This document shows, piece by piece, positions 21,843-38,717 of a stretch of DNA of 64,000 nucleotides (positions are counted from its first letter, which is position 1; each line of letters begins with the position of its first letter). The DNA comes from Bdellovibrio bacteriovorus str. Tiberius (GTDB lineage Bacteria; Bdellovibrionota; Bdellovibrionia; Bdellovibrionales; Bdellovibrionaceae). The stretch covers positions 620,001 through 684,000 of the forward strand of contig NC_019567.1 in assembly GCF_000317895.1 (NCBI RefSeq). Direction: 5' to 3'. Below the pieces are notes generated by a model. That model searched no databases. It was not told the DNA's origin and was given only the letters and a program-made list of their open reading frames with translations. A program made the position numbers and the translations under genes.

Positions 21843-22376
21843 ATGAATTTGTTTTTCCGTCTTTTGCATGTTCTGATTTTTTCCCGTTTCCGTTCCCGCG
21901 TGGGCATTATGGATGAATGCGCGACACCGTTTAGAGTGTGGCCGACAGATCTGGATGTTCTTCGTCACATGAACAATGGGGTCTATCTGTCTTTGCAGGA
22001 TCTGGCGCGCACCGATTACATGATCCGTGCTCAGGCCGCGGGGGCGATTGCCGCTGAAGGCTGGTATCCGGTGGTGGCCTCTGAAACCATCCGCTTTCGC
22101 AGGTCTTTGAAGGTCTTTCAGAAATTCCATCTGCACACACGACTGATCACCTGGGATGATAAGTATCTTTATCTTGAACACAAGTTCACCAGTCGCGGGG
22201 ACCTTGTGGCTATCGGGATGATTCGCGCGCGCTTCTTAAGTAAAAAGGGCGGGACGGTATCACCCGCGGAGCTGATGAAGGCCGTGGGCGAAAACCTGAC
22301 AGCGCCCCTTATGCCGGAATACCTGCAGGCTTGGATCGCTGCCGATCAGGAGCAGTCGAAAGCCGCGGGCGTCTGA
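21843..22376 (+). CDS. Hotdog-fold acyl-CoA thioesterase-like protein
   Basis: A 177-residue protein with the 4HBT-type core: VWPTDLDVLRHMNNGVYLSL places Asp and the HMNN segment as in YbgC-like and THEM6-like thioesterases, followed by ETIRFRRSLKVFQKF and LYLEHKFTSRG strands. The first 20 residues are hydrophobic and basic and may attach it to the inner membrane, as in THEM6-type proteins. The acyl substrate is unknown. The preceding gap carries a small hairpin but no clear terminator, so co-transcription with the Ntn-hydrolase gene is possible. Its stop is one base from the convergent Tsx-like gene. Confidence 0.8.
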   Translation: MNLFFRLLHVLIFSRFRSRVGIMDECATPFRVWPTDLDVLRHMNNGVYLSLQDLARTDYMIRAQAAGAIAAEGWYPVVASETIRFRRSLKVFQKFHLHTRLITWDDKYLYLEHKFTSRGDLVAIGMIRARFLSKKGGTVSPAELMKAVGENLTAPLMPEYLQAWIAADQEQSKAAGV

Positions 22377-22377
22377 T

Positions 22378-23187
22378 TCAGAACTTGTATCCCAAAACCA
22401 CATAGTGTCCGAGGCCGGAGGTTTCTCCGGCAATACCGCCGTCGACAAACTGTCCATAGTCTTTGTAGTACTTCAATCCATAGCCCAATGAATAATCGGC
22501 TTGATGCCAGTAAAAGCCGTTGTACCAAGCCACCGAACTGGTGGTTCGGCCGGGCTCTTGACCGATCTCGTCGGCAGAGAAAATGAAATCCAGATATCCC
22601 TGATAAGAAATGAAACTTTGATTGGCGAAGTGATAAAACGGAGCAAACCAGTTCGCCGCCAGAAAGTATCCATCCCAAGTGTGTTCATTCACGGCGCCAT
22701 AGTTTTCACGGACATAGCGGGCCATCAGATTCGCGCCCAGTTTTCCATTCCAGGGCACTTTGAAATCCACACCCAGACCGACGCATTCTTCAAACAGCGC
22801 CCGGTCACCAACAATCAACAGTGTCGCCAGATACCATTCCTTAACCGGCCCCTACGAAAGGTCCTTCTGCACAATGTGATTGATGGAAAAGCGCGGGAAG
22901 GTTTTCAGAAACAGATTGTCGCTGTCATGAAAGTCACTGTCTTTGGAATCAAAAATATCAAAGACGTCAAAGAATCCGTAAAAGTCCAAAAAGCCCGAAC
23001 GGCCCCCGAACTCCATCTCGATGTAGGTGTCGTCTTGCTGGTCAAAAGGATTTTTGTTGTCAAAGCCCTTGTACAGATTGAACTGCAGCCAGCTGAAGTT
23101 CTGCGACTTTGCGGCCTCTTGAGAAAACGCGTCCGGGGACAGTGCCAGTGCCATTGTCAGCGCAAGCAGGGGCAGAACTTTGAACAT
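22378..23187 (-). pseudogene. Tsx-like nucleoside channel with in-frame amber codon
   Basis: Two open frames, 22852-23187 and 22378-22818, are the front and back of one Tsx-type outer-membrane channel. The front has a signal peptide (MFKVLPLLALTMALALSPDA), then DTYIEMEFGGRSGFLDFYGF and FPRFSINHIVQKDLS. The back continues in the same frame with GPVKEWY and ends HYVVLGYKF, like the Tsx C-terminus. The single interruption is TAG at 22852-22854 (codon 112 of 270) where E. coli Tsx has Phe in DLSFGPFKEWY. There is no frameshift. It may be a pseudogene, a readthrough gene or a sequencing error. AGGAGG precedes the start, 11 nt after the upstream gene ends. Confidence 0.85.
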
Positions 23188-23198
23188 GGATCCTCCTG

Positions 23199-24653
23199 TC
23201 AGTGCAGATAAGAAGGTGCAAAGATCTTTTGCAGTCGGCCGGATTTTGAAAGTTCCTGAATGGCCGAATTTATTTCCTCGATTTTCAAGGTGGATTTTTT
23301 CGAGACCGCACATTTCACATCCACAGAATCAATTTCCAGCGGGGCTTTTTGCAGGCGGGAATCGTTGCTTTTGTAATAGCTGTATTCAAGGCTGTTCAGC
23401 AGAATCAACGGCACCCGCTTCACACTGAGTTTTTCCACGTTGGCAGCGCCCGAACCGGCGTCTTCGCGTTCAAGGCTCTTGTCGTTAAAGTAGGGCGTCA
23501 GGGCCGGATAGACAAAGTTCAGCACTGCACCAATGCGTTTGCCTTTCAGGTCGTCTGTCGTCCGAATCTTGGCGACTTCAGGATCACCAGCGTGGCCCAC
23601 GATCAAATCACTTTGGCGGAAGATAGGGGAACTCCAGTGGTACTGTTTTGCGTACTGACCGGCCCAGGCTTCGGTGTCATAGCAGACCAGCTCAATCTGC
23701 CCGGAAGCAAGGCGCGCATCCAGACGGCCTCGTGGCAGCAGCACGAAGGTGATGGGGCGTTGGATCTTTTTACCGATTTCCAGAGCTATATCGAAAAAGA
23801 CCCCGCCACGCACGATGCCGTCGTTGTCTGAAGATTTGTCGAAGTGAATGAACGGAGGCGAGTCATTACTGTTCAGACCATAGGTCACAGGTTTGGGAAT
23901 GGTGTTTGGATCTGCGTAGCGCTTGTATATTTTGCTGATCACCTGGCGGTCTTGAAGTTTGTCGATGGCACGGTTGAGTTTTGCCAGGGTCAGGGTGGAT
24001 TTTTTTGATAGCGAACACTGGATTTCTGTTTTATCCAGTGCAAAAGAACTGCGATGCAGGGACGGGTAAATGCTTTTGTAATAGCTGTATTCGATTTCAC
24101 CAAGAATGATATAAGGAACCCGGCCAGTCAGCAGCTTCTTAATGCTGACTTCGATGGTCGGGCTGTCGTTTCGGGTCAGTTCGTTGGTGCGGAAGCGGTC
24201 GTCTAAATCAGCATAGAAATAGTTTTCAACAGTTCCAATGGCCCCTTTGATCTGATCTGGGGTTGCAAATGGGACATCGCCCAGTCCGACCAGAACGTTG
24301 GCGTGGGTGTAAAGTGTTTTGCTCCACAGGGCCCCGTCGGCAAAGGGCAGGCGCCAGCGTTTGCTGTTATGGCAGACCAGATCAATTTTATTGTTAATGA
24401 TATTGGTGGCGACGCGTTTTCGCGGAATTCGTCCGATGGTGTAGTCACCGCCCAGTTCATCACCGATGGCGACCGCCATTTCGTAAATCAATCCACCGGT
24501 GGGAATTGGATTGTTCTGATTTTCAAACTGGAACAGAAGTGGTGGGGCATTGCTGGCAATGAAACCAAATTTGATAGCGCCCGAAGCCTCGGCAGAGGCC
24601 ACCTGATAGACAGCAGCAGATACAAGAATCAGGATAAGGCGGCGAAAGTTCAT
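23199..24653 (-). CDS. Periplasmic protein with two tandem family-3 solute-binding domains
   Basis: A 484-residue exported protein with signal peptide (MNFRRLILILVSAAVYQVAS). It is an internal duplication: each half has a domain starting with a GxxxSNxxPP-like strand, a RIPRKR or LLPRGR segment, LVCHNS or LVCYDT, EYSYYKS, and SKKSTL. Residues about 25-250 and 255-484 each match one SBP_bac_3 domain. No ABC permease or kinase domain is attached, so it may sense or scavenge rather than feed an ABC transporter. It forms an operon with the Tsx-like channel, which suggests uptake of a small polar solute. Confidence 0.85.
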   Translation of the reverse strand: MNFRRLILILVSAAVYQVASAEASGAIKFGFIASNAPPLLFQFENQNNPIPTGGLIYEMAVAIGDELGGDYTIGRIPRKRVATNIINNKIDLVCHNSKRWRLPFADGALWSKTLYTHANVLVGLGDVPFATPDQIKGAIGTVENYFYADLDDRFRTNELTRNDSPTIEVSIKKLLTGRVPYIILGEIEYSYYKSIYPSLHRSSFALDKTEIQCSLSKKSTLTLAKLNRAIDKLQDRQVISKIYKRYADPNTIPKPVTYGLNSNDSPPFIHFDKSSDNDGIVRGGVFFDIALEIGKKIQRPITFVLLPRGRLDARLASGQIELVCYDTEAWAGQYAKQYHWSSPIFRQSDLIVGHAGDPEVAKIRTTDDLKGKRIGAVLNFVYPALTPYFNDKSLEREDAGSGAANVEKLSVKRVPLILLNSLEYSYYKSNDSRLQKAPLEIDSVDVKCAVSKKSTLKIEEINSAIQELSKSGRLQKIFAPSYLH

Positions 24654-38634: not shown

Positions 38635-38717
38635 TGGTGCCCCGCGAGGGACTTGAACCCCCACGCTTGCGCACTAGATCCTAAGTCTAGCGTGTCTGCC
38701 AATTTCACCAGCGGGGC
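38635..38717 (-). tRNA. tRNA-Leu(UAG)
   Basis: On the minus strand the acceptor arms GCCCCGC (38717-38711) and GCGGGGC (38645-38639) pair fully, followed by discriminator A and an encoded CCA. The anticodon stem-loop CTAGA-CTTAGGA-TCTAG gives anticodon UAG. A class II variable arm (TGCGCAAGCGT) and the T-arm GGGGGTTCAAGTCCCTC are visible. It lies downstream of gcvH on the same strand. Confidence 0.97.

Follow-up and report, generated by a model that had tools for sequence, protein, structure and literature searches.

A single in-frame amber codon in the only tsx gene of Bdellovibrio bacteriovorus Tiberius, probably a recent nonsense mutation

The tsx locus of strain Tiberius

The genome of Bdellovibrio bacteriovorus strain Tiberius is a single contig of 3,988,594 bp (accession CP002930; PMC3539863), and the window analysed here is the stretch of 64,000 bases from 620001 to 684000 of that contig, in whose numbering coordinates are given unless otherwise stated. 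Within it lies a minus-strand gene for a nucleoside-specific channel of the Tsx family, whose reading frame opens with an ATG at 23187, closes with a TGA ending at 22378 and is interrupted once by a TAG. The features of the locus, in the order of transcription of tsx, are the following.

23199..24653, minus strand: upstream gene, 11 bases from tsx, whose 484-aa product has two SBP_bac_3 stretches (open reading frame and profile match)
23192..23197, minus strand: Shine-Dalgarno sequence AGGAGG, spaced 4 bases from the tsx ATG (sequence; conserved in HD100 and G006)
22378..23187, minus strand: tsx gene of 269 codons and a TGA, with the interruption at codon 112 (reading frame; PF03502 at 5.5e-84, 1tlw at 1.9e-18)
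22855..23187, minus strand: translatable 5′ part of tsx, 111 aa, encoding the signal peptide and predicted strands 1-4 of 12 (reading frame; AlphaFold model)
22852..22854, minus strand: in-frame TAG (amber) at codon 112 (reading frame and codon alignment)
22378..22851, minus strand: part of tsx behind the stop, 157 codons, with predicted strands 5-12 and a persisting mark of purifying selection (codon comparison; AlphaFold model)
21843..22376, plus strand: convergent gene for a 4HBT_2 thioesterase-like protein (open reading frame and profile match)

The first-pass annotation had read this region, without naming the strand, as a Tsx-like channel with one amber codon, and both the identity and the interruption are borne out. 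The residues KDLS before the TAG and GPVKEWY after it share one frame; the protein read through the stop spans positions 2-244 of the 244 in the PF03502 (Channel_Tsx) profile with an E-value of 5.5e-84 and a score of 282.2 bits, against a family cut-off of 27.2, and it matches Escherichia coli Tsx (1tlw) at 1.9e-18. The interrupted match is thus far beyond chance, and it is the sole Tsx that a genome-wide scan of Tiberius returned, with one TAG inside. No second lesion accompanies the TAG anywhere in the 269 codons, and there is no frameshift.

The gene for the 484-aa protein, whose two SBP_bac_3 stretches are apparently two solute-binding domains on one chain, is probably co-transcribed with tsx. 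The two genes are neighbours in Tiberius, HD100 and G006 alone, and the full-length form of the protein likewise appears only there. No minus-strand gene lies directly behind tsx, where it would be exposed to polarity of the stop, and a polar effect on a downstream gene is not expected because the next gene is convergent. A paralogous SBP_bac_3 match elsewhere in Tiberius (contig positions 1863834-1864538) has one TGA and one TAG inside the aligned stretch, and is perhaps a decayed paralogue or else an alignment overrunning a gene end.

Predicted structure of the interrupted channel

When the read-through sequence is modelled with AlphaFold (mean pLDDT 76), residue 112 falls just before strand 5 of 12, if the short pair 92-96/99-101 is counted as one strand, and the best PDB match of the model is the Tsx structure 1tlw, with a TM-score of 0.70-0.75. 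The read-through protein shares with the Tsx family (PF03502; E. coli Tsx, PDB 1tlw/1tly/1tlz) a match to the full-length profile, a predicted 12-stranded barrel, a signal peptide and a C-terminal Phe, and it differs in having a TAG at codon 112. Against the enterobacterial NCBIfam subfamily model for Tsx it reaches 118.9 of 311 bits, which is below the cut-off. The substrate would, judging from the family, be a nucleoside.

The 12-stranded outer-membrane barrel is predicted for the read-through sequence and not for the 111-aa product, which would have only 4 strands; going by the model, the latter should neither close into a barrel nor work as a channel.

Codon 112 in relatives

Tsx was found in 17 of 66 genomes of the bacterium's family, Tiberius included, and the stop occurs only in Tiberius, none of the other 16 tsx genes having an internal stop. 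The first-pass annotation had proposed an alignment with other strains at codon 112. In a codon alignment the position is a sense codon in all 13 aligned relatives, namely TGG (Trp) in the two closest, HD100 and G006, and a codon for Leu, Val, Ile, Ala, Met or Gln in the others, so that Trp is not conserved and yet the column is always sense. The in-frame stop is accordingly absent from the orthologues, as is looked for in a pseudogene. The intact tsx genes of HD100 and G006 lie in the same neighbourhood as that of Tiberius, with the tandem SBP gene upstream and the convergent thioesterase gene, and differ from it in having Trp instead of TAG at codon 112; the HD100 protein is 84% identical in amino acids to Tiberius Tsx.

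Selection behind the stop

The part of the gene that would no longer be translated has the appearance of a selected coding sequence. By the NG86 method, comparison with HD100 and with G006 gives the same dN/dS of 0.045 behind the stop, which is not above the value before the stop, although with synonymous sites near saturation these ratios are rough. In the region behind the stop, 25 synonymous and 6 nonsynonymous changes fall on the Tiberius branch after polarisation (upper 95% limit for the latter, 13), where about 88 nonsynonymous changes would be expected under neutrality (104 synonymous and 367 nonsynonymous sites). The two sister branches together show 47 to 20, a ratio not different from that of the Tiberius branch (Fisher p 0.33), and at none of the 75 columns that are invariant in the 13 relatives has Tiberius changed.

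Going by these counts, of the 88 changes expected under neutrality no more than about 13, or some 15% of the branch, could have accumulated unselected, and the true share of the branch without selection is probably near nil. Neither relaxed selection nor further lesions were thus found behind the stop, both of which are expected of an old pseudogene and not of a young one. The 25 synonymous against 6 nonsynonymous changes and the unchanged invariant columns indicate that the gene was selected until very recently, and hence that the stop either is young or does not exist in the organism itself.

Origin of the amber codon

Three options had been put forward in the first-pass annotation, a recent nonsense mutation, readthrough and a base-call error, and they do not stand equally: the mutation is the best supported, the error is less likely and the evidence speaks against readthrough. 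That no further decay is seen does not by itself separate the three, since a wrong base call and readthrough are as compatible with it as is a very recent mutation.

If the deposited base were wrong, through a base-call or assembly error, the organism would have an intact tsx, in keeping with a gene that shows purifying selection and no other flaw. The last base of the amber codon also belongs to a run of five G. Sequencing by 454 errs for the most part by inserting or deleting bases in homopolymers, which shifts the frame, and not by substitution, and the change at codon 112 is a substitution and not a frame-shifting insertion or deletion. Tiberius was sequenced with 454 and conventional gap closing, which leaves room for such an error, but at a reported depth of 60-fold (PMC3539863), which argues against it. 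The quality of the assembly around the gene points the same way. Of the HD100 open reading frames, 134 had a match in the 164 kb of Tiberius with which they were compared: 119 were intact orthologues, 13, tsx among them, appeared interrupted, and two more were partial hits without stops. Apart from tsx, the apparent interruptions with internal stops were put down either to start calls that made the frame over-long (for example h550900, h612210 and h640564) or to spurious reading frames antisense to real genes (h596241, h556790 and h608132). This leaves tsx with the sole mid-gene stop in the approximately 160 kb compared, among about 120 orthologues, which implies that the assembly is otherwise clean there. 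An error at this base is on the whole unlikely, and we infer that the TAG is real in the organism.

A real TAG could still be decoded, by a programmed signal or by a suppressor, so that the full-length channel is made, and the intact and selected frame behind the stop would be explained in this way. Other evidence is against this. The search for a suppressor tRNA, also proposed in the first-pass annotation, came back empty, none of the 35 tRNA genes found in the Tiberius genome having a CUA anticodon; a tRNA-Leu with anticodon UAG (38635-38717) was rejected as an amber suppressor, since it reads CUA leucine codons. Release factor RF1 is present and intact, and TAG ends 36 of 121 genes (30%), counted over non-overlapping long open reading frames around the window. 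The stop occurs in no relative, which speaks against a conserved recoding signal, the RNA downstream of it folds no better than shuffled sequences (z 0.36), no Rfam family was matched and no other interrupted gene lies nearby. Neither a CUA suppressor tRNA nor a conserved recoding element was thus found, and dedicated readthrough is very improbable, as is the related notion that the amber codon is read through to keep Tsx at a regulated low level in a strain that grows with and without prey. Natural low-level misreading of TAG may take place.

Hardly credible at all is a gene in two parts, in which translation would reinitiate behind the stop, for instance at TTG 22818, to give a second polypeptide that assembles with the first. 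An open reading frame of 146 aa does begin at this TTG, but no well-placed Shine-Dalgarno site precedes it, the gene is split in no relative, and the second polypeptide, lacking a signal peptide, would be barred from the usual route to the outer membrane.

It is therefore likely that one nonsense substitution inactivated tsx very recently, either in the lineage of Tiberius or within the culture that was sequenced, and a recent nonsense pseudogene or strain polymorphism, an ordinary event, is the best reading of the locus. A single nonsense substitution at codon 112, in the lineage or in the culture, would end translation after 111 residues, and the exported remnant, a signal peptide followed by four strands of the barrel, would be unable to close the 12-stranded pore, so that no working Tsx would be made. 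Tiberius tsx shares with young bacterial single-nonsense pseudogenes the one disabling change, the lack of further decay and the uneven occurrence of the gene within the genus, and, provided that the base is real, does not differ from them substantially. In E. coli, loss of Tsx is known as an escape from phage or bacteriocin, and by analogy a similar escape may be considered for Tiberius.

Biological weight of the probable loss and distribution of tsx

The loss of a nucleoside channel had been judged notable in a predator that feeds on prey nucleosides, a view that the wider comparison weakens. Tsx was detected in 13 of 24 Bdellovibrio genomes, the other 11 being without detectable Tsx, and its distribution on an rpoB tree of 22 of these genomes needs four changes, three of them forced by well-supported branches, so that losses or gains of tsx are repeated on this tree. 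G009 (90% complete), the sister of the group of Tiberius, HD100 and G006, is among those without Tsx. Tiberius and HD100 do have a tsx gene, yet in neither is a partner detectable in the form of the inner-membrane nucleoside transporters NupC (PF07662) and NupG (PF03825). With this patchy distribution, and with NupC and NupG not detectable in these two, tsx seems dispensable in Bdellovibrio and its loss less notable than first held.

Tiberius is known for its ability to grow with prey as well as without it. The main text of its genome paper mentions neither Tsx nor nucleosides nor pseudogenes (PMC3539863), and papers naming both Bdellovibrio and Tsx are, by their titles and abstracts, on other subjects. 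If real, the stop would mean one more dispensable outer-membrane channel lost in Bdellovibrio, and would matter mainly for annotation and for models of nucleoside uptake in Tiberius; nothing in the biology of translation or of the channel is altered by it. As to the wider relationships of the protein, Tsx of the bee-gut bacterium Gilliamella bombicola (NZ_FMAQ01000002.1) is 46-47% identical to the Bdellovibrio form, while those of Salinicola and Kushneria are only 32-36% identical, a closeness that may hint at lateral transfer.
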